Shown piece by piece: positions 10,182 through 56,311 of a DNA stretch of 64,000 nucleotides. Both the position numbers and the translations under genes were made by a program. Every line of letters starts with the position of its first letter. Within the stretch, counting starts at the first letter, position 1. The notes under the pieces are model-generated. The model was not told the origin of the DNA. It worked only from the letters and a program-made list of their open reading frames with translations, and did not search any database. Location: positions 1 through 64,000 of the forward strand of contig QXJR01000024.1 of assembly GCA_020975725.1 (NCBI GenBank). The letters are read 5' to 3'. The stretch comes from Picocystis sp. L7 (taxonomy: Eukaryota; Chlorophyta; Picocystophyceae; Picocystales; Picocystaceae).

Positions 10182-12101
10182 ATGGAGTATGGCGGGCCGA
10201 GCCATCCGAGTATGGCGTCTGATCAAGCGTTTCAAGAAGCCATGGAGAACTACCTTCGTCACGTGTGTTTGGCGCCAGGAACGTTGCGCAAGTACAAAAG
10301 ACACTGGGAAGGGTTCGCCTCGTTCTTGTCCAATGCGTGTGTAGGCGGATTAGATGGAGTCGAGAGCCAAGATGCCCTCGTCCATTATATCGAGAAATAC
10401 TTGGAAAAGGTGAAGGAGGAAGGAGGGAAGCTCACTTCCTTGATGACGGGATCCTCAGCTACAGTGCATGTTGCTCATGCATTTGCACGACTGCGTGGAG
10501 AGATGTGTAGGTACGATTCAAGGGGAAAGTATACCCAACAACTAATCAAGCGGTCGAAGCGAGAACAAGCCTCAACCTCGAACATCGACGAAGACATTGT
10601 GGATGCCGATATCACGTGTTTGAAAGTGTCACAACGTCGGGCAATCATGGAAGCATTTGACCCATTGCATGGGATGGCCTTTTCGGTATGCTTTCAAAGT
10701 CTAATGAGAGGAGATACTCTGAGAAATTGCCAAATGTCACGCATGAAACTTGATGAGTACGAACATTCGAGCCCGGATAAATTGCCATTGTTGTACTTGT
10801 ATGCTCCAACAAAGAGTTCGGGTGGGCAAATACGTCGTCATGGCTTGGCTCGTCATGTGGATGTTTCCCTTTGTGCAATGGGAGCACTTTGCCGGTACTT
10901 TGTGTGGAAATATGATGTGAAGGGTGATACTTTCCCGGACCTCCGTGTGGACAGTAGGGAATGGATGAGCACAAATAATCTCTATGGAGTGACGGCGCAA
11001 GGAATGGACCTAGCGTTTCGCCGGGTATTTGCACTTCTGGGACTCACTCTCAAGAAGACGACGCACATGCGAAAATATGGAGCAGGCCATCTTCAACGAT
11101 TGCCGTTCATGCCGGATGATGAGATACAAAGCCTTGGGTATTGGAACGATATGAATAGAGCCAAACTAAGCTCGGTGATGATGGATGCATACCTTGTAGT
11201 GAATCCTAAAGCTTGCATGCATGCTGCAGAACATCCCAGCCATGAGTTTGTACTCCTACCAAGACAACGCGAAGAGCCACCAAAAGTGCTTCTAGATATG
11301 GTATTTCCTCAGCTCGACGAAATGAAAGCAATGGTTGCGGAACGTGCACGAGCACCTAGTGCCAACCACCGGGCAGCCATGAATTTTTTGGATGTGTTGG
11401 ATTTTGCAAGGAAGTGCTTCTTGCAAGATATGGCTGTGTTGCAAGAGGAAGGATTCAAAAGCGAGGCATTCTCACACCGCGTGTTTCGCCATGGGGCATG
11501 GAAAGTGTTCAAGCAAAGAGTACTGAAACGAATCGAGTTGTTCAAGGCCACGCCGCTACCCGACAGGACACAACAATCGAATGCATCGGAGGTAGTGAAA
11601 CAAGTTGCACAAATGTCGGAGAAAATTACATCCATGGGAAGCCAACTTGACTTGATGACGCAGATATTGAAAGGTTGGGAGACTTGTGACCGACCCATTA
11701 CACAACCACGCAATCCAGCGGTGGCTCAAAACTTGCAAAGGACGAGAGCGTGTCCAACGGCGCCTGTGAACACGAAGGACTTTACGTCCTTACGCCATCT
11801 GTGGGCATGTTTGGTGGACCCGGGCGACGATTCTCCTTGCATGTCCTACATGGAGGCAGAGGCCTTGTCACCCACGTGGCGGAAAGATCCGACCGGAAGC
11901 AGCAGGAGGCGCAAGTTTTGGGCGAAGCTGAAGCGTCTGCACCACTGGGTCCAATCGTCCGTGGACGATGGCTTGGTCGCGACGGTAGAAGCTGCATTAG
12001 ACCACCTGGAGGAGCACATGGAAGTCCACGAGGCAGGACTCGGCTCCCTCCTCATGCAGCTTGAGGCGCGAAAGATCCCTCTACCAGGGACTCGCTCGTG
12101 A
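10182..12101 (+). CDS. Crypton-like tyrosine recombinase (Ndc10/GCR1-type DNA-binding fold)
   Basis: This uninterrupted 639-residue frame resembles the tyrosine recombinases of Crypton DNA transposons and their domesticated relatives. An N-terminal SAM-like region (about 12-110, LAPGTLRKYKRHWEGFASFL) precedes a catalytic-like domain. SLMRGDTLRNCQMSRM supplies the first Arg. KTTHMRKYGA matches the HxxR block, with Lys where Arg is usual unless the alignment is shifted by one. YWNDMNRAKLSSVMMDAYL carries the candidate nucleophile Tyr. A following segment, FVLLPRQREEPPKVLLDMVFPQLDEM, matches the Ndc10-like LPR...PP..L...VFP pattern. The C-terminus is basic then acidic. Cryptons lack terminal inverted repeats, so element ends cannot be drawn. 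It sits between the two amidase copies. It could be an active element or a host gene derived from one. Confidence 0.78.
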   Translation: MEYGGPSHPSMASDQAFQEAMENYLRHVCLAPGTLRKYKRHWEGFASFLSNACVGGLDGVESQDALVHYIEKYLEKVKEEGGKLTSLMTGSSATVHVAHAFARLRGEMCRYDSRGKYTQQLIKRSKREQASTSNIDEDIVDADITCLKVSQRRAIMEAFDPLHGMAFSVCFQSLMRGDTLRNCQMSRMKLDEYEHSSPDKLPLLYLYAPTKSSGGQIRRHGLARHVDVSLCAMGALCRYFVWKYDVKGDTFPDLRVDSREWMSTNNLYGVTAQGMDLAFRRVFALLGLTLKKTTHMRKYGAGHLQRLPFMPDDEIQSLGYWNDMNRAKLSSVMMDAYLVVNPKACMHAAEHPSHEFVLLPRQREEPPKVLLDMVFPQLDEMKAMVAERARAPSANHRAAMNFLDVLDFARKCFLQDMAVLQEEGFKSEAFSHRVFRHGAWKVFKQRVLKRIELFKATPLPDRTQQSNASEVVKQVAQMSEKITSMGSQLDLMTQILKGWETCDRPITQPRNPAVAQNLQRTRACPTAPVNTKDFTSLRHLWACLVDPGDDSPCMSYMEAEALSPTWRKDPTGSSRRRKFWAKLKRLHHWVQSSVDDGLVATVEAALDHLEEHMEVHEAGLGSLLMQLEARKIPLPGTRS

Positions 12102-12485
12102 CTTCGCACCGGTCGTACGCCCCCTCCTTCACCTTACAATTCATTCCATCTACCAGCCATTCCACCTCGCGCGAGACGGGCGTCCAGCAGCTTCGTCTGC
12201 GCCAGGTTCGACGCACGGCTCGTCCGTCTCTTCGTCCGCCTCCATCGGTCTTCCTGTCGCCACGCGTGCTGGTCCCGCGTTTCCCCTCCCTTCCTTCCCA
12301 AGAGGGGAGGAAGCGTTCGCGAGTCCAGCACGCGCGGCGATCGACGCCCGTCCGCGGTTGTCCTGATCCGGCGTCGCGTGGTTGGTCCGTCGCGGTGCGA
12401 TCGGTCGCGGCCTCGGTCTTCCCCTCGTCCTCCCTGTCCCCCCTCCCCCGGGACGGAAAAGTCCCTCCGGGACAGGGGAATCAGA
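12102..12485. other. Spacer between recombinase and amidase 2
   Basis: C-rich sequence without a supported gene. The duplicated block begins at 12486. Confidence 0.5.
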
Positions 12486-12718
12486 CATTTCCTCGGCAAG
12501 GCCGGGGACTGGCTTCAGGGACAGGCATCCCCCCACCCCACCCTCCTGGTTCCTTCCCCCACGTGGTCCGAGACGGTTGCAGGTACGAGGCCACGTAACC
12601 CACGGGGCGAAACCAAGGCTGTAGCGCACGTGATCGATGCCCCCCCCCTCACGCTCGTGGTGGTCGAAACCAACCCGGTTGTGTCGACACCAGCAACCGG
12701 TAAAGACCAGGCGAACGA

Positions 12719-12736
12719 GGGTTAGGGTTAGGGTTT
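12719..12736 (+). promoter_or_regulatory. Telomere-like / telo-box motif upstream of amidase 2
   Basis: Identical in sequence and position to the motif at 3203-3220, about 110 bases before the ATG at 12846. It lies inside the near-identical block, so its conservation may only reflect recent conversion. Confidence 0.4.
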
Positions 12737-12845
12737 CGAACCGTCACAAGGAAACCCCTTGCGACCCATCGTGGCGATATGTCCTGTCAACCGATGCAGA
12801 GCATGGACGTTCAGAATTGCAAACGGACCTGGCACACGCGCCACC

Positions 12846-14480
12846 ATGGCGAAGTCCAACCCATCCATCGGAATGCTCGGCTCCACCATGCTCCGAGCCG
12901 CGTTGGTGCTGCTCGGCTTGCTGGCCTTGGCCAGTGGAGACATCGATGTCGTCGAGCTCACAGCCACACAAGTGCAAGAAGCCTACGAACAAGGAGAATA
13001 CACCGCAGAAGAACTCACCCTGGCCTTCCTCGAAAGGATCGAGAAATATGAACCCGTGTACAACGCCTTCGTCTACCTCAACCCAGATGCTGTGGTTACC
13101 GCCAGGGCATTGGATGAGGAATATGCAGCCAGTGGACCTCGCGGTCCGCTGCACGGTGTACCCGTGGTCATCAAGGACAACATGAACCTTGCCGGCGTTC
13201 CTACGAGCAACGGCTACTGGGGATTCCGTCGTTCCACGGGAGGATTGGACATGATCCCCTCCAGAGACGCCAGCGTGGTGGCTCGCCTGCAGGAGGCGGG
13301 CGCCATCATCATGGGCAAGACCAACCTTCCGGACTTTGCAAGGAGCGGGACCGTGTCGGACAGCTCAGCCGTCAACCGGACATACAACTCCTATGGTTTG
13401 AACCTCGTGCCCGGCGGTTCCAGCGGTGGTACAGCCACGGCGGTGTCTAGCAGCTTTGCCGTTCTTGGTTTGGGAACGGAGACTGGTAGCTCCATTCAGA
13501 GTCCATCGGCTTCCCAGAGCTTGGTGGGTATCAAGCCATCCATCGGCTTGGTTCCCATTGACGGCATTGCACCGCTTGTAGCGCAACGGGACGTCGCAGG
13601 TCCAATGGCCAAGACAGTGGAAGATGCAGCAGCCACATTGGATGTCCTTGCTGGACCAACCATTCAAGATGTGAGAACATACAATGGCTTGGCAAGCATT
13701 CCTGAGGAGGGCTACGTTGCCTCTCTGGATTCAGGAGGACTACAGGGAAAGCGATTGGGCGTTTATGATGGTGTATGGGACAATCCACTTTCGCCTGAGA
13801 TAGATGCAGCGTATAACGGGATCCTGGACATTGTCATGGAGCTCGGAGCGGAGCTTGTTACAAATGTTTTCAACGATTCAGGATGGACCGAAATCTATGA
13901 GGACTCCCCCCCCCTATACACTGGATATACAGAGACGTTGTACCATGATTTGAACCTGTACTTTCAGGACCTGGGCGACACATCCGACTTCAACTCGGTC
14001 GAAGAGTGGGAGGAGAAGACCAACCGCACCATGGGGGAGGATGCAGCTGTCAGTCCCTTTTCCGTCACTGCTGAAGGAACTGGTGGGGATCCCCTTACCG
14101 ATCCAGCGTATTGGGAATACGCAGGTTGGAGAAGCCGTGTACACAAGAAATATATTGAGATTATGAAAGAAGAGCAATTGGACGGACTCCTTTATCCCTT
14201 CTCTGCCATTCCCTGGCCAACATTTGGATCTGGCTTGGGTGTTGGCGCTATCAGTGTGCCTCAGATCAATCACATTGGGCTGCCTGGTATTACACTCCCA
14301 GCAGGCTACCTTGATGGTGGGCAACCATTTGCGATCCAGTTTATTGGAAACGATCTTTACACTGAGCCTCAATTGATAGCCATGAGCTATGCGTTTGAGA
14401 AAGCCACGATGTTCCGCATGGCACCAGAGGGTCCAAGTGAACAGGTTTCCGTTGGAAGCTGTACGTGTACAACGTTTTGA
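12846..14480 (+). CDS. Secreted amidase-signature-family hydrolase, copy 2
   Basis: The 544-residue product has the same Kozak start, signal peptide and triad as copy 1: Lys110, Ser192 and Ser216. One change falls inside the nucleophile motif: TETGGSI of copy 1 is TETGSSI here, so the residue before the catalytic serine is Ser instead of the near-invariant Gly. That glycine lines the oxyanion hole in the family, so activity or substrate range may differ. The first ~166 codons are almost identical to copy 1. From there the proteins drift apart, most strongly after residue ~310, and this copy gains five residues. The C-terminus (SVGSCTCTTF) still matches copy 1 (SLGSCECMTF). It converges on the minus-strand gene at 15-17 kb. 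Confidence 0.92.
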   Translation: MAKSNPSIGMLGSTMLRAALVLLGLLALASGDIDVVELTATQVQEAYEQGEYTAEELTLAFLERIEKYEPVYNAFVYLNPDAVVTARALDEEYAASGPRGPLHGVPVVIKDNMNLAGVPTSNGYWGFRRSTGGLDMIPSRDASVVARLQEAGAIIMGKTNLPDFARSGTVSDSSAVNRTYNSYGLNLVPGGSSGGTATAVSSSFAVLGLGTETGSSIQSPSASQSLVGIKPSIGLVPIDGIAPLVAQRDVAGPMAKTVEDAAATLDVLAGPTIQDVRTYNGLASIPEEGYVASLDSGGLQGKRLGVYDGVWDNPLSPEIDAAYNGILDIVMELGAELVTNVFNDSGWTEIYEDSPPLYTGYTETLYHDLNLYFQDLGDTSDFNSVEEWEEKTNRTMGEDAAVSPFSVTAEGTGGDPLTDPAYWEYAGWRSRVHKKYIEIMKEEQLDGLLYPFSAIPWPTFGSGLGVGAISVPQINHIGLPGITLPAGYLDGGQPFAIQFIGNDLYTEPQLIAMSYAFEKATMFRMAPEGPSEQVSVGSCTCTTF

Positions 14481-28228: not shown

Positions 28229-28609
28229 GCCCGATCGACTCCTACCTTCCTCTCCGGCGATCGGCGTCGAGCGGGATCACGTCCACGTCCTTCCGCTTTC
28301 CCAATACCTGCGGTTCCACCCTCCTTCTTCCACTCCTTGTGTCGTCTATGACCCTTTCTGTCTCGAGGTCGTGTAAATTCGAGGCACAGGGTCCCTTCCA
28401 TGGCGTTGGGGTCGCCCCATTTCTCGTGGTGTCCACCCACCCGACCCCAGGACACCACTCCCGCCATTTCTGCGGTGAAAAGGGACGCCTGCCGCACCAG
28501 CAGAGGCCAGCTGCGGCGTTTCCACGGCGCTGGGAACCGCGCCGAGGGAAAGGAGAGGCGCAAGGGTGAGATTCAGGCGTGTCCAAGGCGTGATGCATGC
28601 ACCGACACC

Positions 28610-31600
28610 ATGCGAGAAGATCCTGGTGACGTCGAAGCAACGGTTGGTGGCGGCAAGCAAGGGTTCATGAGACCTGGGAAGGCACCCAAGGACATGATCT
28701 TGTGCAGTTGGTGTAGGAAAGGAGGTCCAAGAGACATCAAGCGAACGAAGAAGCTCCTCTGGTGGACTTGGACGTGGATGCTACTGGCTTCTCCCATGCA
28801 TGCGAGCATGGCACCTAATTTCTTCCTGGCAGACAACGGCGTGACTGTTATGTGTCCTCATGCAGAGATAGGTGAATCTGGAATGGTCGGTGGAATTCAT
28901 TACACGAAAAGAAGCACGGAACAAATAACACCAGCAAATGCACCAACCACCTGCACGAGCAACATCACTGACATGTCGTTCATGTTTTACAACAGGAGTG
29001 ATTTCAATGCCAACATCAGCACATGGGACACCAGTGAGGTGACTTCCATGTTTGGGGCATTCTTCGGAGCGTCCGCTTTTGACCAGCCCATCGGAGGATG
29101 GGACACCAGCAAGGTAGCAGACATGACCCTCGTGTTTGCCGATGCTAGAGACTTCAATCAACCTATTGGACAATGGGACACCAGTGGGGTGACTACTGTG
29201 CATGGAATGTTTTGGGGAGCCTCCGCTTTTGACCAGCCCATCGGAGGTTGGGACACCAGCAAGGTAGTAGACATGGCGTTCATGTTTGCCGAAGCCAACG
29301 ACTTTAATCAATCTGTTGGACAATGGGACACCAGGAAGGTTACAGATATGTATGGGATGTTTTGGGGAGCCTCCGCTTTTGACCAACCCATCGGAGGATG
29401 GGACACCAGCAAGGTAGTAGACATGGCGTTCATGTTTGCCGAAGTCAACAACTTTAATCAACCTATTGGACAATGGGACACCAGTGAGGTTACAGACATG
29501 GCTTTCATGTTTGCTGAAGCCACAGCCTTCAATCAACCCATTGGACAATGGGACACGGGCCAAGTGTCTGACATGCAAGCAATGTTTCAGGACGCAACAA
29601 GTTTTAATCAGCCCATCGATGCATGGAATACAAGTCAGGTGATAGGCATGAGGAGCATGTTCTCTAGTGCAACCGCCTTCAACCAACCCATCGGCTTCTG
29701 GGACACGAGAAAGGTGGGCGATTTTAGCTTTATGTTTGAAGAGGCAATCTCATTCAATCAACCCATTGGACAATGGCATACCAATCAAGCACACACCATG
29801 GAAGCAATGTTCAAAGGAAGCATAAGCTTCGACCAGGACATCGAGGCATGGTGCACCGATCGTGTGGTGTCCTTTGAGTCTATGTTTCAATATGCTACAC
29901 AGTTCAACCGCTCCATTAAAGATTGGAATACCAGCCTGGTAGAAAGCATGGCTTTCATGTTTACAAGAGCCATAAGATTCGATCAGCCGCTGAATTCCTG
30001 GGATGTTAGCTCAGTTGTTTCCATGAGTTCTATGTTTGAGGATGCGTCGTCATTCAATCAAGCACTTCTTGACTGGGATACAAGCACGGTGAGGAATATG
30101 AATGCAATGTTCAAAGGGGCCAGGCAATTTAATGGAGAGATTGGTCAGTGGAACACTAGCCGAGTCCAAAATATGTTTTCCATGTTCCAAGATGCCAGCA
30201 GCTTTGATCAATCCGTTGGCAAATGGGATGTCAGTCAGGTGAAAGACATGAAATCCATGTTCCGGAGAGCTTGGAGTTTCAATCAAGAGCTTGGGGAGTG
30301 GAGAACTGGGAAAGTCACAGATATGAGCAGCATGTTCGCCGAGGCGTTCCGCTTTAATCAACCACTGATTGGGTGGGATGTCAACAATGTGGAAACAATG
30401 GAAAGAATGTTCGAAGATGCTAGAGAGTTCAATCATGCTCTCTTCAACTGGACCACAGTGCACGTTACGGATATGTCATCCATGTTTCTGGATGCCAGCA
30501 AATTCAACCAAAGCTTGTCAAGTTGGTGCGTACCACAAGTAAAGTCACCTCCTACAAACTTCAGTAGCGGAACAAAGATGCTGGTGGAGGATCATCCGGT
30601 CTGGGGGACCTGCCCCCATCTTCCAGGCCCTCCCACGGACACTTTTGTGCTTGGCAGCAACGGAGTGACTGTGGTATGCGATGGTGCTAGGCTCCGCTCG
30701 TACGGCATTGTGCATGGAAAGGAGTACACGAAGAGAAGTCTACCAATGATCACGCCAGAGAATGCAGCAAGCACATGCACAAGCGAAATTGCAAATATGG
30801 GAGGAATTTTTGAGGGCGACAAAGTGTTCAACGAAAATATCAGCTCCTGGGATACTTCAAAGGTAAACAACATGTCGGACCTATTTAACGGTGCACAGGC
30901 CTTCAATGGGGATTTACGGTATTGGGACACACGCCAGGTCCTTCTGATGATTGGGATGTTTCACCGTGCCACTTCGTTTGACCAGGACCTCTCCATGTGG
31001 TGTGTGCGAAACATTGGATCTACCCCAAGCAACTTTTCTGACGGGGCACTTTCGTGGAAGCTTCCCCAGCCTAGATGGGGAACATGCCCCCCTGATGAGA
31101 TTGACTCTGGTAGTCGTGATTTGGGTTTGATTCTGGCCGTGACACTACCCATGGCTTTATTAGTTTGTATGTGCGGCATTTTTACACTGTGGCAAAGGCA
31201 CAAGCGAAAAGAAGAGAGTCGAGCACTGCAGTTCAAACGCAAGCATGCCCCTGGTACAGTCCACAACCCTGCCGATAGAAAGCTTCTCCAGCTTCCCCTA
31301 GAGGGCCCGGTGGAAGTGACCCTGGCATTGACCGATGTGAAGAATAGCACGCTCCTCTGGGAATGTAACCCAGATGCGATGCTAACTGCCACAAGCATGC
31401 ATAACAGAATACTCAGGAAATTTTTGAGCAAGCACGGCGGATATGAAGTTGCCATTGAGGGTGATGGTTTCGTGTTTGCTTTCCACACTCCAATCGATGC
31501 CTTTTGCTTTTGCCTGTGTTCCCAAGAGGCTTTACTGGACTTGAGATGGCCAGGTGCGCTCACCAGCTTGCCAGAGGCGCAGGCTGTATACCAGGATGAA

Positions 31601-33046
31601 GAGCTCCTCTTCAATGGCCTGAGGGTTCGCATGGCCATTGCCACTGGCCATCCAAGGCGGTTGCAGACAAATCCTCTAACCAATGAGGTAGAGTACATTG
31701 GAGGGGTGTTTTCAATTGCCAAGATTCTGGAAGACATTTGTGATGGGGGCCAAGTTTTAATGGATGAGCAAACGTTTACGCAGGTCCACAGACAAGTGGG
31801 AAGTTTTACTGAGCAGGTCTTGCCAACCCGTGATCACAGCGGATCGCTGCGCTGCACCCAGTGCTCAGATGTGATGAGAAGTTGGGGTGGACTGTGCCAA
31901 AGCTCTGAGACTACTTTGCATCACTTGCTTGCAAAGAACCCCCCGATTTTTGTAGATTGTGGCGCCTATCGTTCTCCACATGGTCAAGCAAAAAGCAGCA
32001 ATCTCGAAGTAAACGTAAAATGTTCGAGTGTGGAAGAGGTCCGTGCGATCCAGGTGATGTCCACCAGGCTTGCACCCAGGGCCCTCTTCTTTAGTAAGCC
32101 CATGAAGTATGAGCAAGTTAGGAAGGACTTCTTTGATGCACCAGGAGCACGCGCATCTTTTAATTTTACATTTGGGAGGGTGGCTAACTCACGAAAAACT
32201 CTGCGTCGATTTGTGGGGGCAAACAACACAGAAGGGGACAACCATTCTGTGGAAGAGAAGGTTGGAAGGCCCGTCACCATTGTCTTTTGCAAGCTGATAA
32301 TGCACAGCAATATGCTAGGGACTCATTCTTCAATTCAGGAGTCAGTGAAAAAGCACTTCATTAGTTGCGTACAGCAGCTTCTTGCTTATTACAACGGATA
32401 CCAGTGTGAACTCATAGACAGCAATTATATGCTGGTATTTCCAACTGTCGCGGACGCTGTGAGATGGTCCACAAGCCTGACTTCCTGGATTTATAAGTCA
32501 CATGGAAGCATATGTTACTTGGAGCCGGGTGGGTTGAGTTCTATAATGAAAGAGAGCTCTAGCCGGAGCAACACTGTTTTAGATGTGGAATGGAACAAAA
32601 GTGTACGTGGTTTAGACTATGACGTATCCATTGGCCTTTGCGAAGGCATACCTTCTCTTATTACTCCTCACAGGAGCACTGGATTTGCGGATTATTTTGG
32701 CCCGCTTGTAAGCCGCGCAGCACGTCTGCAGGGGATAGCTCCCAGCGGAGCAATTTGCGGACCTCTGGATATCTTGCATGCAGCGTTTACCTCTGTTACA
32801 AAGAGTGCAGTATCTGGCTTGAGTGACACTTTGACAGCTGGGCTGTATGACCTAGGTGATTTTCGATTCAAAGGTGTGGAGAAGCCACTCCAGGTAGGCT
32901 GCATTGTTACGCCCCCTCTCATGGATCTTGAGCTGCTCCTACAAGAAGGAACAAAGGGTAAGCCGTGTACAGAAGGGAAAGGGTTGCTACATCAGGCGTA
33001 CATCGAGGTTATAGAAGGTTACCGCAAAATCCAGCAAAGTTCATAG
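28610..33046 (+). CDS. Receptor-like class III nucleotidyl cyclase with BspA-like (DUF285) ectodomain
   Basis: From 28610 (caccATGc) the product has 1478 residues; an ATG at 28400 would add 70. A signal sequence or anchor (about 42-66) is followed by two BspA-like modules. Each opens NGVTVxC...YTKR...TCTS and continues in ~25-residue F(N/D)QxIxxWDTSxVxxM repeats, about 20 in the first module and 2-3 in the second. A transmembrane helix (about 835-860) leads to two cytosolic cyclase domains. C1 (about 900-1060) has the metal-binding aspartates in LTDVKNST and EGDGFVF. It has no Asn/Arg pair (VEYIGGVFSIAKI). C2 (about 1215-1430) lacks the first Asp (VFCKL) but has DYFGPLVSRAARL, with the Arg intact and Ser at the Asn site. 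This division matches the C1/C2 split of animal adenylate cyclases, so one composite active site is likely. The ligand is unknown, and ATP versus GTP preference is not certain. Confidence 0.88.
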   Translation: MREDPGDVEATVGGGKQGFMRPGKAPKDMILCSWCRKGGPRDIKRTKKLLWWTWTWMLLASPMHASMAPNFFLADNGVTVMCPHAEIGESGMVGGIHYTKRSTEQITPANAPTTCTSNITDMSFMFYNRSDFNANISTWDTSEVTSMFGAFFGASAFDQPIGGWDTSKVADMTLVFADARDFNQPIGQWDTSGVTTVHGMFWGASAFDQPIGGWDTSKVVDMAFMFAEANDFNQSVGQWDTRKVTDMYGMFWGASAFDQPIGGWDTSKVVDMAFMFAEVNNFNQPIGQWDTSEVTDMAFMFAEATAFNQPIGQWDTGQVSDMQAMFQDATSFNQPIDAWNTSQVIGMRSMFSSATAFNQPIGFWDTRKVGDFSFMFEEAISFNQPIGQWHTNQAHTMEAMFKGSISFDQDIEAWCTDRVVSFESMFQYATQFNRSIKDWNTSLVESMAFMFTRAIRFDQPLNSWDVSSVVSMSSMFEDASSFNQALLDWDTSTVRNMNAMFKGARQFNGEIGQWNTSRVQNMFSMFQDASSFDQSVGKWDVSQVKDMKSMFRRAWSFNQELGEWRTGKVTDMSSMFAEAFRFNQPLIGWDVNNVETMERMFEDAREFNHALFNWTTVHVTDMSSMFLDASKFNQSLSSWCVPQVKSPPTNFSSGTKMLVEDHPVWGTCPHLPGPPTDTFVLGSNGVTVVCDGARLRSYGIVHGKEYTKRSLPMITPENAASTCTSEIANMGGIFEGDKVFNENISSWDTSKVNNMSDLFNGAQAFNGDLRYWDTRQVLLMIGMFHRATSFDQDLSMWCVRNIGSTPSNFSDGALSWKLPQPRWGTCPPDEIDSGSRDLGLILAVTLPMALLVCMCGIFTLWQRHKRKEESRALQFKRKHAPGTVHNPADRKLLQLPLEGPVEVTLALTDVKNSTLLWECNPDAMLTATSMHNRILRKFLSKHGGYEVAIEGDGFVFAFHTPIDAFCFCLCSQEALLDLRWPGALTSLPEAQAVYQDEELLFNGLRVRMAIATGHPRRLQTNPLTNEVEYIGGVFSIAKILEDICDGGQVLMDEQTFTQVHRQVGSFTEQVLPTRDHSGSLRCTQCSDVMRSWGGLCQSSETTLHHLLAKNPPIFVDCGAYRSPHGQAKSSNLEVNVKCSSVEEVRAIQVMSTRLAPRALFFSKPMKYEQVRKDFFDAPGARASFNFTFGRVANSRKTLRRFVGANNTEGDNHSVEEKVGRPVTIVFCKLIMHSNMLGTHSSIQESVKKHFISCVQQLLAYYNGYQCELIDSNYMLVFPTVADAVRWSTSLTSWIYKSHGSICYLEPGGLSSIMKESSSRSNTVLDVEWNKSVRGLDYDVSIGLCEGIPSLITPHRSTGFADYFGPLVSRAARLQGIAPSGAICGPLDILHAAFTSVTKSAVSGLSDTLTAGLYDLGDFRFKGVEKPLQVGCIVTPPLMDLELLLQEGTKGKPCTEGKGLLHQAYIEVIEGYRKIQQSS

Positions 33047-47704: not shown

Positions 47705-50700
47705 ATGCTCCTCGCTCGCCTGCAATGGCACGTACTCTTGATCGTATTCTTGTTGGCAGCAAGTAAATGGCCATGCGCCCAAGCGAACCAAACTTGCAGA
47801 CAATGCGAAAGCTGTCGGAATACAAGCTCAGATGAGGAAGTGCACATTGAAGGAGGCACTTACTTGAAAGAAGGATGCAAACGCAACCCGCTCTCCTGCG
47901 AAAGCCACCAGCGGTACTGCAAGTATGAGTGGTTGCATGGTAGGTTCCAACCGTCTTGCGGAAATCCTAAATACTGTGAAAGGCCCACTTGCGGTCACGT
48001 ACAAGATCAAAAGTGCAAATGGGCAAACTTTTCGGAAAAACAAAACAGTACCGTAATTGTGTATGTCAGGGGAACGGAAGCAAGTGCAGATTGCAACCAT
48101 TGCTGCTACCAATCGAATTCGATCAAAATATATGCTCCTGTTAGCAATGGAACCAATGTAACTTCCATTGCCCACATGGAATGGTGCAGCTCGGTCAGCC
48201 CTGGCTCCAGCGATTCTGATCAACTACCCTCAGATGCACAGGGACCAAGCAATCAAGAACGTCCACCAATTGGCCAGCTTCCACCAAGCGAGGCTCCAAC
48301 AAGTGGTGCCCCACCAGGAAATTCACAGCAAGACCAGCCCCCATCACAAGGGCCAGAAACAGAAGAGCCAACTCCTGAAACTCCCCCAAGCCCATCAGGT
48401 TCCCGCCCTGGAGATGGACCAGGATCCCCACCGGACGATGGACCAGGATCCCCACCGGACGATGGACCAGGATCCCCACCGGACGATGGACCAGGATCCC
48501 CACCGGACGATGGACCAGGATCCCCACCGGACGATGGACCAGGATCCCCACCGGACGATGGACCAGGATCGCCACCAGGGAGCTCCTCTGAACCTCCAGC
48601 CGGCAACGGATCGCCACCAGGAAGCAGTTCACCAGGAAGCGGTTCATCACCAGGGAGCGGCTCACCACCAGGCAGTGGTTCACCACCGGGCAGCGGTTCA
48701 CCACCGGGCAGTGGTTCACCACCGGGCAGCGGCTCACCACCAGGGAGCGGCTCACCACCGGGCAGCAGCTCACCACCAGGCAGTGGTTCACCACCGGGAA
48801 GCGGCTCACCACCAGGGAGCGGCTCACCACCAGGGAGCGGCTCACCACCAGGCAGCGGCTCACCACCAGGGAGCGGCTCACCACCGGGAAGCGGCTCACC
48901 ACCGGGAAGCGGCTCACCACCAGGGAGCGGCTCACCACCGGGCAGCGGTTCACCACCAGGGAGCGGCTCACCACCAGGCAGCGGCTCACCACCGGGGAGC
49001 GGCTCACCACCAGGGAGCGGCTCACCACCAGGGAGCGGCTCACCACCAGGGAGCGGCTCACCACCGGGAAGCGGCTCACCACCGGGAAGCGGCTCACCAC
49101 CGGGAAGCGGCTCACCACCGGGGAGCGGCTCACCACCGGGGAGCGGCTCACCACCGGGTAGTGGTGCACCACCAGGGAGCGGCTCACCACCGGGAAGCGG
49201 TTCACCACCGGGAAGCGGCTCACCACCGGGAAGCGGCTCACCTCCAAGCAGTGGTTCACCACCGGGAAGCGGTTCACCACCAGGGAGCGGCTCACCACCG
49301 GGCAGTGGTTCACCACCGGGCAGCAGCTCACCACCGGGCACCAGCTCACCACCAGGGAGCGGCTCACCACCAGGCAGTGGTTCACCACCAGGCAGCGGCT
49401 CACCACCGGGCAGTGGTTCACCACCAGGCAGCGGCTCACCACCAGGCAGCGGCTCACCACCGGGAAGCGGCTCACCACCAGGGAGCGGCTCACCACCGGG
49501 GAGCGGCTCTCCACCGGGGAGCAGCTCACCACCAGGCAGTGGTTCACCACCGGGAAGCGGCTCACCACCGGGCAGCGGCTCACCACCGGGTAGTGGTGCA
49601 CCACCAGGGAGCGGCTCACCACCAGGGAGCGGCTCACCACCGGGAAGCGGCTCACCACCGGGAAGCGGCTCACCACCGGGAAGCGGCTCACCACCGGGGA
49701 GCGGCTCACCACCGGGGAGCGGCTCACCACCAGGGAGCGGCTCACCACCGGGCAGTGGTTCACCACCGGGCAGCGGCTCACCACCAGGGAGCGGCTCACC
49801 ACCAGGGAGCGGCTCACCACCGGGGAGCGGCTCACCACCGGGCAGTGGTTCACCACCGGGCAGCGGCTCACCACCAGGGAGCGGCTCACCACCGGGAAGC
49901 GGCTCACCACCGGGGAGCGGCTCACCACCAGGGAGCGGCTCACCACCGGGGAGCGGCTCACCACCGGGAAGCGGCTCACCACCAGGGAGCGGCTCACCAC
50001 CGGGGAGCGGCTCACCACCGGGGAGCGGCTCACCACCGGGGAGCGGCTCACCACCGGGTAGTGGTGCACCACCAGGGAGCGGCTCACCACCGGGAAGCGG
50101 TTCACCACCGGGAAGCGGCTCACCACCGGGAAGCGGCTCACCTCCAAGCAGTGGTTCACCACCGGGAAGCGGTTCACCACCAGGGAGCGGCTCACCACCG
50201 GGCAGTGGTTCACCACCGGGCAGCAGCTCACCACCGGGCACCAGCTCACCACCAGGGAGCGGCTCACCACCAGGCAGTGGTTCACCACCAGGCAGCGGCT
50301 CACCACCGGGCAGTGGTTCACCACCAGGCAGCGGCTCACCACCAGGCAGCGGCTCACCACCGGGAAGCGGCTCACCACCAGGGAGCGGCTCACCACCGGG
50401 GAGCGGCTCTCCACCGGGGAGCAGCTCACCACCAGGCAGTGGTTCACCACCGGGAAGCGGCTCACCACCGGGCAGCGGCTCACCACCGGGTAGTGGTGCA
50501 CCACCAGGGAGCGGCTCACCACCGGGAAGCGGTTCACCACCGGGAAGCGGCTCACCACCGGGAAGCGGCTCACCTCCAAGCAGTGGTTCACCACCGGGAA
50601 GCGGTTCACCACCAGGGAGCGGCTCACCACCGGGCAGTGGTTCACCACCGGGAAGCGGCTCACCTCCAGGCAGTGGTTCACCACCAGGAAGCGGCTCACC

Positions 50701-53700
50701 ACCGGGTAGTGGTGCACCACCAGGGAGCGGCTCACCACCGGGAAGCGGCTCACCACCGGGCAGCGGCTCACCACCGGGAAGCGGCTCACCACCGGGAAGC
50801 GGCTCACCACCGGGAAGCGGCTCACCACCGGGAAGCGGCTCACCACCGGGAAGCGGCTCACCACCAGGGAGCGGCTCACCACCGGGAAGCGGCTCACCAC
50901 CAGGGAGCGGCTCACCACCAGGGAGCGGCTCACCACCGGGGAGCGGCTCACCACCAGGCAGCGGCTCACCACCGGGGAGCGGCTCACCACCAGGCAGCGG
51001 CTCACCACCGGGGAGCGGCTCACCACCGGGGAGCGGCTCACCACCGGGGAGCGGCTCACCACCGGGGAGCGGCTCACCACCGGGGAGCGGCTCACCACCG
51101 GGGAGCGGCTCACCACCGGGGAGCTGCTCACCACCGGGGAGCGGCTCACCACCGGGGAGCGGCTCACCACCAGGGAGCGGCTCACCACCGGGCAGTGGTT
51201 CACCACCAGGGAGCGGTTCACCACCAGGGAGCGGCTCACCACCGGGCAGCGGCTCACCACCGGGCAGCGGCTCACCACCGGGCAGCGGCTCACCACCGGG
51301 GAGCGGCTCACCACCGGGGAGCGGCTCACCACCGGGGAGCGGCTCACCACCGGGGAGCGGCTCACCACCGGGGAGCGGCTCACCACCGGGGAGCGGCTCA
51401 CCACCGGGGAGCGGCTCACCACCGGGGAGCGGCTCACCACCGGGGAGCGGCTCACCACCAGGCAGCGGCTCACCACCAGGCAGCGGCTCACCACCAGGCA
51501 GTGGTTCACCACCGGGGAGCGGCTCACCACCGGGGAGCGGCTCACCACCGGGCAGCGGCTCACCACCGGGGAGCGGCTCACCACCGGGCAGCGGCTCACC
51601 ACCGGGGAGCGGCTCACCACCGGGGAGCGGCTCACCACCGGGGAGCGGCTCACCACCGGGGAGCGGCTCACCACCAGGGAGCGGCTCACCACCGGGGAGC
51701 GGCTCACCACCAGGGAGCGGCTCACCACCAGGCAGCGGCTCACCACCAGGCAGTGGTTCACCACCGGGCAGCGGCTCACCACCGGGCAGCGGCTCACCAC
51801 CAGGGAGCGGCTCACCACCAGGCAGCGGCTCACCACCGGGAAGCGGCTCACCACCGGGAAGCGGCTCACCACCGGGAAGCGGCTCACCACCGGGAAGCGG
51901 CTCACCACCGGGAAGCGGCTCACCACCAGGGAGCGGCTCACCACCAGGGAGCGGCTCACCACCGGGGAGCGGCTCACCACCAGGCAGCGGCTCACCACCG
52001 GGCAGCGGCTCACCACCGGGGAGCGGCTCACCACCGGGGAGCGGCTCACCACCGGGGAGCGGCTCACCACCGGGGAGCGGCTCACCACCGGGGAGCGGCT
52101 CACCACCGGGGAGCGGCTCACCACCGGGGAGCGGCTCACCACCGGGGAGCGGCTCACCACCGGGGAGCGGCTCACCACCGGGGAGCGGCTCACCACCAGG
52201 CAGCGGCTCACCACCAGGCAGCGGCTCACCACCAGGCAGTGGTTCACCACCGGGGAGCGGCTCACCACCGGGGAGCGGCTCACCACCGGGCAGCGGCTCA
52301 CCACCGGGGAGCGGCTCACCACCGGGGAGCGGCTCACCACCGGGGAGCGGCTCACCACCGGGGAGCGGCTCACCACCGGGGAGCGGCTCACCACCGGGGA
52401 GCGGCTCACCACCAGGGAGCGGCTCACCACCGGGAAGCGGCTCACCACCGGGAAGCGGCTCACCACCAGGCAGTGGTTCACCACCGGGGAGCGGCTCACC
52501 ACCGGGGAGCGGCTCTCCACCGGGGAGCGGCTCACCACCGGGGAGCGGCTCACCACCGGGCAGCGGCTCACCACCGGGAAGCGGTTCACCACCAGGGAGC
52601 GGCTCACCACCGGGCAGCGGCTCACCACCGGGCAGCGGCTCACCACCGGGCAGCGGCTCACCACCGGGCAGCGGCTCACCACCGGGCAGCGGCTCACCAC
52701 CGGGCAGCGGCTCACCACCGGGGAGCGGCTCACCACCGGGGAGCGGCTCACCACCGGGCAGCGGCTCACCACCGGGAAGCGGCTCACCACCGGGGAGCGG
52801 CTCACCACCGGGCAGCGGCTCACCACCGGGCACCGGCTCACCACCGGGAAGCGGCTCACCACCAGGGAGCGGCTCACCACCAGGGAGCGGCTCACCACCG
52901 GGCAGCGGCTCACCACCGGGAAGCGGTTCACCACCAGGGAGCGGCTCACCACCGGGCAGTGGTTCACCACCGGGCAGCGGCTCACCACCAGGGAGCGGCT
53001 CACCACCAGGCAGTGGTTCACCACCGGGAAGCGGCTCACCACCGGGGAGCAGCTCACCACCGGGGAGCGGCTCACCACCAGGCAGCGGCTCACCACCAGG
53101 CAGCGGCTCACCACCAGGCAGTGGTTCACCACCGGGGAGCGGCTCACCACCGGGGAGCGGCTCACCACCGGGCAGCGGCTCACCACCGGGGAGCGGCTCA
53201 CCACCGGGGAGCGGCTCACCACCGGGGAGCGGCTCACCACCGGGGAGCGGCTCACCACCGGGGAGCGGCTCACCACCGGGGAGCGGCTCACCACCGGGGA
53301 GCGGCTCACCACCGGGGAGCGGCTCACCACCAGGCAGCGGCTCACCACCAGGCAGCGGCTCACCACCAGGCAGTGGTTCACCACCGGGGAGCGGCTCACC
53401 ACCGGGGAGCGGCTCACCACCGGGCAGCGGCTCACCACCGGGGAGCGGCTCACCACCGGGGAGCGGCTCACCACCAGGATCCTCACCAGGCAGCGGGTCC
53501 CCTGGCAACTCGCCGGGATCCTCACCTGGCAGCGGGTCCCCTGGCAACTCTCCTGGATCCTCACCTGGCAGCGGGTCCCCTGGCAACTCGCCTGGATCCT
53601 CACCTGGCAGCGGGTCCCCTGGCAACTCGCCTGGATCGTCACCTGGCAGCGGGTCCCCTGGCAACTCTCCTGGATCGTCACCTGGCAGCGGGTCCCCTGG

Positions 53701-56311
53701 CAACTCGCCTGGATCCTCACCTGGTAGCAGTTCGCCTGGATCGTCACCAGGCAGCGGGTCCCCTGGCAACTCGCCTGGATCCTCACCTGGCAGCGGGTCC
53801 CCTGGCAACTCTCCTGGATCGTCACCTGGCAGCGGGTCCCCTGGCAACTCTCCTGGATCGTCACCTGGCAGCGGGTCCCCTGGCAACTCGCCTGGATCCT
53901 CACCTGGTAGCAGTTCGCCTGGATCGTCACCAGGCAGCGGGTCCCCTGGCAACTCGCCTGGATCGTCACCTGGCAGCGGGTCCCCTGGCAACTCTCCTGG
54001 ATCGTCACCAGGCAGTGGGTCCCCTGGCAACTCGCCTGGATCCTCACCTGGTAGCAGTTCGCCTGGATCGTCACCAGGCAGCGGGTCCCCTGGCAACTCG
54101 CCTGGATCCTCACCTGGTAGCAGTTCGCCTGGATCGTCACCAGGCAGCGGGTCCCCTGGCAACTCTCCTGGATCGTCACCAGGCAGCGGGTCCCCTGGCA
54201 ACTCGCCTGGATCCTCACCTGGTAGCAGTTCGCCTGGATCGTCACCTGGCAGCGGGTCCCCTGGCAACTCTCCTGGATCGTCACCAGGCAGCGGGTCCCC
54301 TGGCAACTCGCCTGGATCGTCACCTGGCAGCGGGTCCCCTGGCAACTCTCCTGGATCGTCACCTGGCAGCGGGTCCCCTGGCAACTCTCCTGGATCGTCA
54401 CCTGGCAGCAGTTCGCCTGGATCGTCACCAGGCAGCGGGTCCCCTGGCAACTCGCCTGGATCCTCACCTGGTAGCAGTTCGCCTGGATCGTCACCTGGCA
54501 GTGGGTCCCCTGGCAACTCGCCTGGATCCTCACCTGGTAGCAGTTCGCCTGGATCGTCACCTGGCAGCGGGTCCCCTGGCAACTCTCCTGGATCGTCACC
54601 AGGCAGCGGGTCCCCTGGCAACTCGCCTGGATCCTCACCTGGTAGCAGTTCGCCTGGATCGTCACCAGGCAGCGGGTCCCCTGGCAACTCGCCTGGATCC
54701 TCACCTGGTAGCAGTTCGCCTGGATCGTCACCTGGCAGCGGGTCCCCTGGCAACTCTCCTGGATCGTCACCAGGCAGCGGGTCCCCTGGCAACTCGCCTG
54801 GATCCTCACCTGGTAGCAGTTCGCCTGGATCGTCACCTGGCAGCGGGTCCCCTGGCAACTCTCCTGGATCGTCACCAGGCAGCGGGTCCCCTGGCAACTC
54901 GCCTGGATCGTCACCAGGCAGCGGGTCCCCTGGCAACTCGCCTGGATCCTCACCTGGTAGCAGTTCGCCTGGATCGTCACCAGGCAGCGGGTCCCCTGGC
55001 AACTCGCCTGGATCCTCACCTGGTAGCAGTTCGCCTGGATCGTCACCTGGCAGCGGGTCCCCTGGCAACTCTCCTGGATCGTCACCAGGCAGCGGGTCCC
55101 CTGGCAACTCGCCTGGATCGTCACCTGGCAGCGGGTCCCCTGGCAACTCTCCTGGATCGTCACCTGGCAGCGGGTCCCCTGGCAACTCTCCTGGATCGTC
55201 ACCTGGCAGCAGTTCGCCTGGATCGTCACCAGGCAGCGGGTCCCCTGGCAACTCGCCTGGATCCTCACCTGGTAGCAGTTCGCCTGGATCGTCACCTGGC
55301 AGTGGGTCCCCTGGCAACTCGCCTGGATCCTCACCTGGTAGCAGTTCGCCTGGATCGTCACCTGGCAGCGGGTCCCCTGGCAACTCTCCTGGATCGTCAC
55401 CAGGCAGCGGGTCCCCTGGCAACTCGCCTGGATCCTCACCTGGTAGCAGTTCGCCTGGATCGTCACCAGGCAGCGGGTCCCCTGGCAACTCGCCTGGATC
55501 CTCACCTGGTAGCAGTTCGCCTGGATCGTCACCTGGCAGCGGGTCCCCTGGCAACTCTCCTGGATCGTCACCAGGCAGCGGGTCCCCTGGCAACTCGCCT
55601 GGATCCTCACCTGGTAGCAGTTCGCCTGGATCGTCACCAGGCAGCGGGTCCCCTGGCAACTCTCCTGGATCGTCACCTGGCAGCGGGTCCCCTGGCAACT
55701 CTCCTGGATCGTCACCTGGCAGCGGGTCCCCTGGCAACTCGCCTGGATCCTCACCTGGCAGCGGGTCCCCTGGCAACTCTCCTGGATCGTCACCTGGCAG
55801 CAGTTCGCCTGGATCGTCACCAGGCAGCGGGTCCCCTGGCAACTCGCCTGGATCCTCACCTGGTAGCAGTTCGCCTGGATCGTCACCTGGCAGCGGGTCC
55901 CCTGGCAACTCTCCTGGATCGTCACCTGGCAGCGGGTCCCCTGGCAACTCGCCTGGATCCTCACCTGGCAGCGGGTCCTCTGGCAACTCGCCTGGATCCT
56001 CACCTGGTAGCAGTTCGCGGGGATCCTCACCAGGCAGATGGTCCCTTGGCAACTGGCCGTCTGCTGGCGACCGTTCTCTTAGCGTGGAAATGGTTAGACA
56101 AGAGGACAAGTCCAATCACCATATAACTGGAAACATGGCTTCTCTTTTTAGAAGGGGCTCTATCTGGCGCCGAATGGCTTTAGATAGTGTACAGTTTTTG
56201 TTGGAACGTTCCAGTTTCAGGGGGAAGCACAACCATCTGGATGGTTTGTCTGAAGAAAGTGATGTAGAATCCTTGTCAACTGGAAGTGGTAGGAGATTGC
56301 TACGGGCATGA
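47705..56311 (+). CDS. Giant secreted Ser/Pro/Gly repeat protein (hydroxyproline-rich glycoprotein-like)
   Basis: The 2868-residue product has a signal peptide (about 5-25, WHVLLIVFLLAASKWPCAQA). A Cys-rich N-terminal domain follows (about 29-160, some fourteen cysteines and several Asn-glycosylation sites). Next come seven GPGSPPDD units and roughly 270 hexapeptide SPPGSG units. About 65 units of the 13-residue SPGSSPGSGSPGN type close the repeat region. The C-terminal ~90 residues are non-repetitive and basic (FRRGSIWRRMALDSVQFLLERSSF, end GRRLLRA), without a GPI signal or membrane segment. Repetitive SP/SPP tracts are typical of O-glycosylated hydroxyproline-rich wall proteins. The Cys-rich domain matches no family I know. 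A long rod in the wall or matrix is the best guess. The frame is unbroken and its codon-level variants are mostly silent (ccg/cca, ggc/ggg/gga), consistent with selection on this frame. Confidence 0.82.
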   Translation: MLLARLQWHVLLIVFLLAASKWPCAQANQTCRQCESCRNTSSDEEVHIEGGTYLKEGCKRNPLSCESHQRYCKYEWLHGRFQPSCGNPKYCERPTCGHVQDQKCKWANFSEKQNSTVIVYVRGTEASADCNHCCYQSNSIKIYAPVSNGTNVTSIAHMEWCSSVSPGSSDSDQLPSDAQGPSNQERPPIGQLPPSEAPTSGAPPGNSQQDQPPSQGPETEEPTPETPPSPSGSRPGDGPGSPPDDGPGSPPDDGPGSPPDDGPGSPPDDGPGSPPDDGPGSPPDDGPGSPPGSSSEPPAGNGSPPGSSSPGSGSSPGSGSPPGSGSPPGSGSPPGSGSPPGSGSPPGSGSPPGSSSPPGSGSPPGSGSPPGSGSPPGSGSPPGSGSPPGSGSPPGSGSPPGSGSPPGSGSPPGSGSPPGSGSPPGSGSPPGSGSPPGSGSPPGSGSPPGSGSPPGSGSPPGSGSPPGSGSPPGSGSPPGSGSPPGSGAPPGSGSPPGSGSPPGSGSPPGSGSPPSSGSPPGSGSPPGSGSPPGSGSPPGSSSPPGTSSPPGSGSPPGSGSPPGSGSPPGSGSPPGSGSPPGSGSPPGSGSPPGSGSPPGSGSPPGSSSPPGSGSPPGSGSPPGSGSPPGSGAPPGSGSPPGSGSPPGSGSPPGSGSPPGSGSPPGSGSPPGSGSPPGSGSPPGSGSPPGSGSPPGSGSPPGSGSPPGSGSPPGSGSPPGSGSPPGSGSPPGSGSPPGSGSPPGSGSPPGSGSPPGSGSPPGSGSPPGSGSPPGSGSPPGSGSPPGSGAPPGSGSPPGSGSPPGSGSPPGSGSPPSSGSPPGSGSPPGSGSPPGSGSPPGSSSPPGTSSPPGSGSPPGSGSPPGSGSPPGSGSPPGSGSPPGSGSPPGSGSPPGSGSPPGSGSPPGSSSPPGSGSPPGSGSPPGSGSPPGSGAPPGSGSPPGSGSPPGSGSPPGSGSPPSSGSPPGSGSPPGSGSPPGSGSPPGSGSPPGSGSPPGSGSPPGSGAPPGSGSPPGSGSPPGSGSPPGSGSPPGSGSPPGSGSPPGSGSPPGSGSPPGSGSPPGSGSPPGSGSPPGSGSPPGSGSPPGSGSPPGSGSPPGSGSPPGSGSPPGSGSPPGSGSPPGSGSPPGSGSPPGSGSPPGSCSPPGSGSPPGSGSPPGSGSPPGSGSPPGSGSPPGSGSPPGSGSPPGSGSPPGSGSPPGSGSPPGSGSPPGSGSPPGSGSPPGSGSPPGSGSPPGSGSPPGSGSPPGSGSPPGSGSPPGSGSPPGSGSPPGSGSPPGSGSPPGSGSPPGSGSPPGSGSPPGSGSPPGSGSPPGSGSPPGSGSPPGSGSPPGSGSPPGSGSPPGSGSPPGSGSPPGSGSPPGSGSPPGSGSPPGSGSPPGSGSPPGSGSPPGSGSPPGSGSPPGSGSPPGSGSPPGSGSPPGSGSPPGSGSPPGSGSPPGSGSPPGSGSPPGSGSPPGSGSPPGSGSPPGSGSPPGSGSPPGSGSPPGSGSPPGSGSPPGSGSPPGSGSPPGSGSPPGSGSPPGSGSPPGSGSPPGSGSPPGSGSPPGSGSPPGSGSPPGSGSPPGSGSPPGSGSPPGSGSPPGSGSPPGSGSPPGSGSPPGSGSPPGSGSPPGSGSPPGSGSPPGSGSPPGSGSPPGSGSPPGSGSPPGSGSPPGSGSPPGSGSPPGSGSPPGSGSPPGSGSPPGSGSPPGSGSPPGSGSPPGSGSPPGTGSPPGSGSPPGSGSPPGSGSPPGSGSPPGSGSPPGSGSPPGSGSPPGSGSPPGSGSPPGSGSPPGSGSPPGSSSPPGSGSPPGSGSPPGSGSPPGSGSPPGSGSPPGSGSPPGSGSPPGSGSPPGSGSPPGSGSPPGSGSPPGSGSPPGSGSPPGSGSPPGSGSPPGSGSPPGSGSPPGSGSPPGSGSPPGSGSPPGSGSPPGSGSPPGSGSPPGSSPGSGSPGNSPGSSPGSGSPGNSPGSSPGSGSPGNSPGSSPGSGSPGNSPGSSPGSGSPGNSPGSSPGSGSPGNSPGSSPGSSSPGSSPGSGSPGNSPGSSPGSGSPGNSPGSSPGSGSPGNSPGSSPGSGSPGNSPGSSPGSSSPGSSPGSGSPGNSPGSSPGSGSPGNSPGSSPGSGSPGNSPGSSPGSSSPGSSPGSGSPGNSPGSSPGSSSPGSSPGSGSPGNSPGSSPGSGSPGNSPGSSPGSSSPGSSPGSGSPGNSPGSSPGSGSPGNSPGSSPGSGSPGNSPGSSPGSGSPGNSPGSSPGSSSPGSSPGSGSPGNSPGSSPGSSSPGSSPGSGSPGNSPGSSPGSSSPGSSPGSGSPGNSPGSSPGSGSPGNSPGSSPGSSSPGSSPGSGSPGNSPGSSPGSSSPGSSPGSGSPGNSPGSSPGSGSPGNSPGSSPGSSSPGSSPGSGSPGNSPGSSPGSGSPGNSPGSSPGSGSPGNSPGSSPGSSSPGSSPGSGSPGNSPGSSPGSSSPGSSPGSGSPGNSPGSSPGSGSPGNSPGSSPGSGSPGNSPGSSPGSGSPGNSPGSSPGSSSPGSSPGSGSPGNSPGSSPGSSSPGSSPGSGSPGNSPGSSPGSSSPGSSPGSGSPGNSPGSSPGSGSPGNSPGSSPGSSSPGSSPGSGSPGNSPGSSPGSSSPGSSPGSGSPGNSPGSSPGSGSPGNSPGSSPGSSSPGSSPGSGSPGNSPGSSPGSGSPGNSPGSSPGSGSPGNSPGSSPGSGSPGNSPGSSPGSSSPGSSPGSGSPGNSPGSSPGSSSPGSSPGSGSPGNSPGSSPGSGSPGNSPGSSPGSGSSGNSPGSSPGSSSRGSSPGRWSLGNWPSAGDRSLSVEMVRQEDKSNHHITGNMASLFRRGSIWRRMALDSVQFLLERSSFRGKHNHLDGLSEESDVESLSTGSGRRLLRA
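48409..48575. repeat. 24-bp coding repeat (GPGSPPDD), ~7 copies
   Basis: Units of the type gatggaccaggatccccacc plus ggac; nearly identical at the DNA level. Confidence 0.9.
48600..53475. repeat. 18-bp coding array (SPPGSG), ~270 copies with segmental duplications
   Basis: The 18-bp unit tcaccaccgggcagcggc varies mainly at silent sites. Larger blocks are copied: 49,141-49,620 and 50,041-50,520 are the same at a 900-bp (50-unit) offset, including rare GAPP, SPPS and GTSS variants. One unit encodes SPPGSC (51,121). Confidence 0.95.
53476..56035. repeat. 39-bp coding array (SPGSSPGSGSPGN), ~65 copies
   Basis: Units of the type tcgcctggatcctcacctgg plus cagcgggtcccctggcaac, interspersed with a longer SPGSSPGSS variant. 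A block of about 800 bp appears twice: gtgggtcc variants at 54,501 and 55,302 with matching flanks, offset 801. Confidence 0.93.

Follow-up and report, generated by a model that had tools for sequence, protein, structure and literature searches.

Catalytic residues are divided between two tandem cyclase domains in a predicted Picocystis receptor with a DUF285 repeat ectodomain

Can a receptor with a single membrane helix carry a cyclase site that is assembled from two different domains? This question is raised by a gene in the first 64,000 nucleotides of contig QXJR01000024.1 of the green alga Picocystis sp. L7 (GenBank assembly GCA_020975725.1, forward strand; this whole stretch is referred to as the window). 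The gene product combines a repeat-rich ectodomain, one hydrophobic helix and two cyclase domains, C1 and C2, and an earlier interpretation made from the letters alone (the sequence-only reading) had proposed a receptor with one composite active site. We surveyed the genome (20.5 Mb in 30 contigs); the window covers positions 1 to 64,000 of its contig 22. Our analysis makes it probable that the gene encodes a single-pass receptor nucleotidyl cyclase with DUF285 repeats outside and C1 and C2 inside, which would jointly form one catalytic site, and that it originated by tandem duplication and ectodomain exchange.

Both cyclase domains lie within one stop-free frame and have profile support, as the sequence-only reading had claimed. 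The Pfam family Guanylate_cyc matched the window protein at C1 only (E = 1.1e-8), and window C2 by itself gave no cyclase match in Pfam; a profile built from five C2s found GRESAG4.1 (E = 1.6e-17), and comparison of the C1 profile with the C2 profile yielded a probability of 99.6%. By these profile comparisons, both are homologous to the class III catalytic homology domain, and for each the closest solved relatives by sequence profile were trypanosomatid GRESAG4/ESAG4-type cyclases. C1 had been said to keep both metal aspartates and to lack the Asn/Arg pair, and this is what we found: Asp979 and Asp1022 are present, and Ser1105 and Ile1109 occupy the Asn and Arg positions. C2 had been described as lacking the first aspartate and retaining the arginine; Arg1442 is indeed retained, but both metal aspartates are absent and not just the first (Lys1298 and Ser1341 take their places). 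When the six tandem receptors of the genome were placed in one alignment, both aspartates were found in 6/6 C1 domains, which had Asn in 0/6 and Arg in 0/6; the C2-type domains had Asp in 0/6 at both positions, Arg in 6/6 and Asn in 4/6. The additional cyclase-like middle segment of the protein on contig C1 was excluded from these counts. The proposed likeness to mammalian adenylate cyclases holds as well, since the alignment displays the same split: in these enzymes, according to the accessible part of PMC6027212, metal ligands come from C1 and substrate-side residues from C2.

Because this division recurs in 6/6 receptors, a composite site is the best reading of the two domains, although the pairing itself received no support from two fold predictions. 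In such a site, C1 would contribute the two metal-binding aspartates, and C2 would contribute the arginine for the transition state, the positions that recognise the base and probably a triphosphate lysine; together they would form one catalytic site plus a second, dead pseudo-site. A putative ligand, which the sequence-only reading supposed to be an extracellular protein, would then act through the ectodomain and shift the faces of C1 and C2, be it in a single chain or across two chains. The product would be a cyclic nucleotide, and cAMP is somewhat favoured over cGMP. The genome holds further components of such a circuit, namely two phosphodiesterase places and 13 places for cyclic nucleotide monophosphate (cNMP) binding. 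In a 946-aa frame (G000:C13:230973-232442), a cNMP-binding domain occurs together with a class I phosphodiesterase.

Above the cut-off, the cyclase family was found at seven genomic places. Six of them are in tandem receptors (the window gene, those on contigs C23, C19 and C1, and two on C16, termed C16a and C16b); the seventh, at about 354 kb on C22, scores strongly as a canonical cyclase (E = 2.4e-57). In each of the five paralogs the ectodomain is followed by the helix, then C1 and then C2; one paralog has an additional segment in between. For all six receptors, a hydropathy scan identified one strong helix between the ectodomain and the cyclase part, and in the window protein this is the single strong hydrophobic segment (residues 910-928), in line with the one membrane helix that had been claimed. 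The scan also flagged N-terminal segments in the C23, C19, C16a and contig C1 proteins, and weak segments at residues 674-692 of the C19 protein and 684-702 of the contig C1 protein. The outer parts are of different kinds: DUF285 in the window protein, Laminin_G_3 plus NHL in C16a and the contig C1 protein, and an EGF-like match below the cut-off in C16b. The C23 and C19 ectodomains gave no family match, the latter being leucine-rich by eye.

In comparisons of whole proteins, homology of the window protein extended over residues 899-1530 for C23 (33%, E = 5.5e-87) and residues 913-1507 for C19 (29%, E = 1.7e-69). Residue 899 comes directly after the last WGTCPP cap, 11 residues before the helix. 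Against the C23 and C19 ectodomains, the window ectodomain reached only shuffle-level scores (38 versus a mean of 40.3 and 37 versus 37.0, respectively). The helix and juxtamembrane segment scored above all 500 shuffles with both of these paralogs; the same segment had no match above shuffles in the other three paralogs, and it scored 19 (shuffle mean of 20.2) against a DUF285 receptor kinase described below. From the helix and juxtamembrane match to C23 and C19, together with the unmatched ectodomains, we infer that helix and cyclase constitute one unit and that the DUF285 part was exchanged; sequence comparison places this predicted exchange at residue 899, just outside the membrane. Related receptors with different outer parts look like a family of interchangeable sensors.

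The origin of the tandem was approached through the bacterial relatives of C1, of which 80 out of 194 were kept and 79 were aligned (L124 was dropped because it is short). The first and second metal aspartates were present in 78 and 79 of these 79 rows, Arg in 75, Asn in 72, the first-base Lys in 65 and the second-base Asp in 76; both aspartates and Arg occurred jointly in 74/79 single-domain rows. The fetched parts of the bacterial open reading frames (ORFs), most of which were cut at the flank, held one cyclase domain in 80/80 cases. Since most of the bacterial relatives have both aspartates and Arg in one domain, the tandem of the alga seems to derive from the duplication of a complete ancestor, with the two halves then specialising. 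Most likely, the starting point was a homodimeric cyclase with one domain, of the GRESAG4/myxobacterial type, which would have been duplicated in tandem; the halves would have specialised and the receptor family would then have grown, followed by a later exchange of ectodomains just outside the membrane. In a rapid phylogeny of 12 algal and 44 of the 80 bacterial rows (56 in total), evaluated by the SH-like approximate likelihood ratio test (SH-aLRT; the mark of the tool is 80), the C2s grouped with a support of 87, and the grouping of the window, C23 and C19 received 96 in C1 and 93 in C2. That a single duplication preceded receptor multiplication would thus be a step with moderate support. 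At the base positions, the 30 nearest bacterial rows had Lys in 29/30 and Asp in 30/30, and by established base-position rules ATP was likely the ancestral substrate.

Among the kept matches, the closest bacterial relative was L073 from Myxococcota, with 45% identity to C1 and no Arg. L073 and L104 are Myxococcota single-domain cyclases with both aspartates and without Arg, resembling an orphan C1. Three contigs of metagenome-assembled genomes (L085, L097 and L101) are labelled Klebsiella pneumoniae; their cyclases group with other phyla, and the label looks doubtful. The window sequence as a single query had no close relatives in the viral_contigs and genome_contigs collections, a phage-collection search returned one weak match (25% identity, E = 1e-4), and the C1 profile found no relatives in viral_contigs.

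About two dozen repeats in two modules had been claimed for the ectodomain, and we counted 24 (21 plus 3) with a spacing of 25 residues and no indels within either module. Each module has an NGVTV...CTS opening cap and a WCV...WGTCP closing cap; in the DNA, the repeat period is 75 bases and the copies are at most 97% alike. Scans of the window protein assigned the repeats to DUF285 in Pfam (PF03382, E = 7.9e-223) and to the "PARCEL repeat" in NCBIfam (TIGR02167, E = 3.3e-39). The former designation as BspA-like was correct in that a repeat ectodomain is present, but it is only a loose name for this family: no match to LRR_5, which we take to be the Pfam label of the BspA-type leucine-rich repeat, was obtained at E ≤ 1. 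At this threshold, Pfam returned only DUF285 and Guanylate_cyc for the window protein, a Venus-flytrap ectodomain was not found, and a sequence search of solved structures with the ectodomain gave no match. Dyad symmetry in the coding DNA, a PARCEL trait, did not appear in a crude count on the window gene alone (7 inverted 8-mers within 60 nt, where 200 synonymous shuffles averaged 13.4). The accessible part of Roske et al. 2010 (PMC2996958) describes DUF285/PARCEL as 25-residue repeats in membrane proteins of bacteria, prasinophytes and a diatom, and the literature found, as far as accessible, offers no settled function. Trichomonas cyclases were considered as a BspA precedent and rejected: in the available part of PMC2914791 they are multi-helix cyclases, and the BspA genes are just another family.

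At least 166 DUF285 matches were found in the genome. From the matches listed on contigs of known length, 47 frames were grouped (seven frames on C11, C14 and C17 and a short broken C7 frame were excluded), and 43/47 are at most 60 kb away from a contig end, in zones that make up 16% of the sequence of those contigs; contig ends are here assembly ends and are not equated with telomeres. A search of the literature on subtelomeres of green algae turned up nothing relevant. Among 20 DUF285 frames that were read, including the window gene, the eight top relatives of the window ectodomain were 46-54% identical to it over 334-611 residues. One single open frame (L067:1498-5244 on G000:C4, at a distance of some 17 kb from the end of the contig) joins DUF285, a proline-rich stalk, a helix, an MLKL_N-like domain (E = 4.9e-13) and a protein kinase (E = 2.5e-50) and is thus a predicted receptor kinase with a window-type ectodomain. 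Downstream sequence was also examined for six further DUF285 frames whose C terminus looks like a helix. In four of them (L008 and L016 on C10, L012 on C13 and L029 on C21), DNA of the kinase part follows past an in-frame TAA and is 85-91% identical to the C4 kinase at the protein level; three have further breaks, and the C21 locus has none in the 1032 bases available. These four look like interrupted copies; alternatively, an intron may lie at the TAA. For L035 and L015, no kinase was found in the 876 and 492 downstream bases available. Three other DUF285 proteins (L069:152-2602, L070:1285-3642 and 4338-5729) carry at their N terminus the motif DVDQSGTLS, which by eye resembles an EF-hand, followed by a helix and then the repeats. 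This order predicts the opposite topology of the DUF285 ectodomain. We offer as a tentative and rather doubtful idea that DUF285/PARCEL arrays are ligand-binding modules of a fast-changing surface-receptor repertoire near chromosome ends, which would be wired to two or more outputs, among them the cyclic-nucleotide site and the MLKL_N-kinase module. If true, receptors of this sort would be well fitted to recognising partners, prey, bacteria or viruses.

The pairing of C1 and C2 was followed by two AlphaFold runs. Run 1 (window residues 960-1515 with 45/80 bacterial rows) packed the C2 tail strands on C1, which we ascribe to the ends of the bacterial rows being aligned there; in run 2 (trimmed rows, 39/80) this packing was gone, and the predicted local distance difference test score (pLDDT) was 56-79 for the first 80 residues of C2 and mostly <60 beyond. 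The wreath-like pair expected by the sequence-only reading received no support from these runs: C1 was predicted confidently and C2 was partly folded, C2 having no properly aligned relatives in either fold alignment. The linker between C1 and C2, of about 150 residues, was of low confidence.

Several observations weigh against an active composite-site receptor of the proposed origin. The predicted template modelling scores of the two runs were 0.47 and 0.44, much of C2 was below 60 pLDDT, and the models aligned to the tandem cyclases 5iv4, 7pdd and 9u3u only with root mean square deviations of >20 Å. In the tree, the C1s fell on one side of a branch with an SH-aLRT of 77, below the mark, and a number of algal terminal branches are long, with a maximum of 3.52. 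Canonical base pairs are Lys/Asp in adenylate cyclases and Glu/Cys in guanylate cyclases, and the predicted C2 pair of the window protein, Glu1337/Asp1431, matches neither; the paralogs have Gln/Asp, Gln/Asp, Glu/Leu, Glu/Ala and Lys/Asp. The lysine at position 1491, which has a phosphate-binding role in class III cyclases, is kept in five of the six C2-type domains and is Glu in the sixth, and the Asn position of window C2 is Ser. C2 appears to diverge fast, and a loss of activity is possible. Finally, the start codon and the signal peptide are putative. The start at 28610 proposed earlier turned out to be the second in-frame ATG of a larger frame beginning at 28400, and the ATG codons at 28400, 28610, 28667 and 28694 (residues 1, 71, 90 and 99) are each a possible start. 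The claimed signal sequence is signal-like by eye at about residues 117-138 (KKLLWWTWTWMLLASPMHASMA), but it was not flagged in the hydropathy scan of the window protein at a mark of 1.6.

Some of these features would fit a catalytically dead pseudo-cyclase receptor, in which C1-C2 serves as a scaffold or as a nucleotide sensor for other cyclases: C2 has neither metal aspartate, carries Ser at the Asn position and an odd base pair, and in the window protein escapes Pfam detection. The losses are, however, complementary and not random, with both aspartates in 6/6 C1 domains and Arg in 6/6 C2-type domains, and with the KG lysine persisting in 5/6 of the latter, and we hold this explanation to be unlikely. 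A composite site could also be built in trans, from C1 of one chain and C2 of another (of the same receptor or a paralog), when ectodomains cluster. Trypanosome receptor cyclases require dimerisation of their catalytic domains (accessible part of PMC6027212), the six receptors share the same residue split, and the linker offers about 150 low-confidence residues. Pairing within the chain is nevertheless suited by the finding that C1 and C2 are one unit in 6/6 receptors and that C1 and C2 give congruent trees for the window, C23 and C19, which leaves trans pairing a possibility, if a doubtful one. That the ectodomain-cyclase junction is an artefact of the assembly or gene model is highly improbable in our view. 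DUF285 arrays are repetitive and mostly near contig ends, and the junction is known here from the assembly alone; yet a stop-free frame spans the repeats, the helix and both cyclase domains, homology to C23 sets in at the end of the last repeat cap, ahead of the helix, and all five paralogs keep the same order, including the one with an inserted segment.

Table 1. Segments of the receptor cyclase gene in window coordinates.
Feature	Position	Strand	Description
Receptor cyclase gene	28400..33046	+	Single open frame, 1548 codons plus stop
Putative signal segment KKLLWWTWTWMLLASPMHASMAP	28748..28816	+	Recognised by eye only
Ectodomain module 1	28817..30640	+	NGVTV...CTS cap, 21 DUF285/PARCEL repeats (28970-30544), WCV...WGTCP closing cap
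Ectodomain module 2	30641..31093	+	Second cap, 3 repeats (30794-31018), closing cap with WGTCPP end
Outer segment, start of homology to paralog C23 (residue 899)	31094..31126	+	Sequence comparison
Single membrane helix, residues 910-928	31127..31183	+	Hydropathy scan
Juxtamembrane segment with FKRKHAPGTVHNP, common to paralogs C23 and C19	31184..31303	+	Sequence comparison
Cyclase domain C1	31304..31807	+	Asp979 and Asp1022 kept; base positions Ala1018/Glu1098; Asn and Arg positions Ser1105 and Ile1109
Cyclase domain C2	32264..32920	+	Metal positions Lys1298 and Ser1341; base positions Glu1337/Asp1431; Asn position Ser1438; Arg1442; Lys1491

Other parts of the window and genome were also inspected. 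On the plus strand of the window, positions 10182-12101 hold a 639-aa frame with an NDC10_II domain (PF16787, E = 9.7e-25), a domain that we take to be linked to tyrosine recombinases and Crypton elements. A direct duplication of 1.97 kb (2970-4914 and about 12485-14444) is 89% identical in DNA and contains two amidase frames that are 86% identical. A 2868-aa frame (47705-56311, plus strand) appears wall-protein-like: its head is rich in cysteine and looks secreted, and behind it comes a very long Ser/Pro/Gly repeat, in which an 18-base unit occurs in 269 copies before other units follow. Chlorophyll-binding protein matches were found at eighteen places in the genome; one of them, compared with solved structures, had as its top two the long chains LHCI-2 and LHCI-11 (9vfj), followed by chlorophyll a-b binding proteins such as 6kac, which is presumably a Chlamydomonas structure. 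These matches are in keeping with a green alga, and also with an alga that carries a secondary plastid derived from a green one.

So far, receptor cyclases have been known as dimers in which each chain has one catalytic domain, and a division of labour between C1 and C2 has been described for multi-helix enzymes. In the Picocystis gene this division would be built into a single-pass receptor, and it is found again across a set of six receptors whose outer parts differ, so that one chain could hold a complete ligand-controlled site. The repeats acquire a testable role, as DUF285 stands in front of a cyclase at one place in the genome and in front of a kinase at a different place. The window protein and the DUF285/PARCEL proteins of PMC2996958 are alike in having 25-residue repeats in membrane proteins; the accessible part of that description mentions no catalytic output domain, whereas the Picocystis genome has predicted fusions to a cyclase and, elsewhere, to a kinase. 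The sequence-only reading knew of no described receptor with this layout. Searches of the open-licence literature, outside of which most subscription journals lie, turned up no description of a cyclase or kinase receptor with DUF285. As a kind, however, receptor cyclases that cross the membrane once and vary in their ectodomains are known from trypanosomatids; in the accessible part of PMC6027212 they have a single catalytic domain per chain and Venus-flytrap ectodomains, in place of which the window protein has DUF285. The trypanosomatid GRESAG4/ESAG4 cyclases and the window protein, given its predicted topology, are alike in a large variable ectodomain, one helix and a class III domain; they differ in that the former have all catalytic residues in one domain per chain and the latter has two domains with split residues. 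Mammalian transmembrane adenylyl cyclases share with the window protein the metal Asp pair in C1 and the Arg in C2, but they have twelve membrane helices in two six-helix cassettes instead of one helix and an ectodomain. Bacterial single-domain class III cyclases (Myxococcota and others), at most 45% identical to C1 among the 80 kept out of 194, unite in one domain (74/79) the Asp, Asp and Arg that are spread over two in the window protein. Metazoan receptor guanylate cyclases have a kinase homology domain and a Glu/Cys base pair, neither of which was found in the window protein. We read the window gene as a probable trypanosome-type receptor cyclase that would work as a C1/C2 pair, and thus as a variant of the receptor-type class III cyclases.

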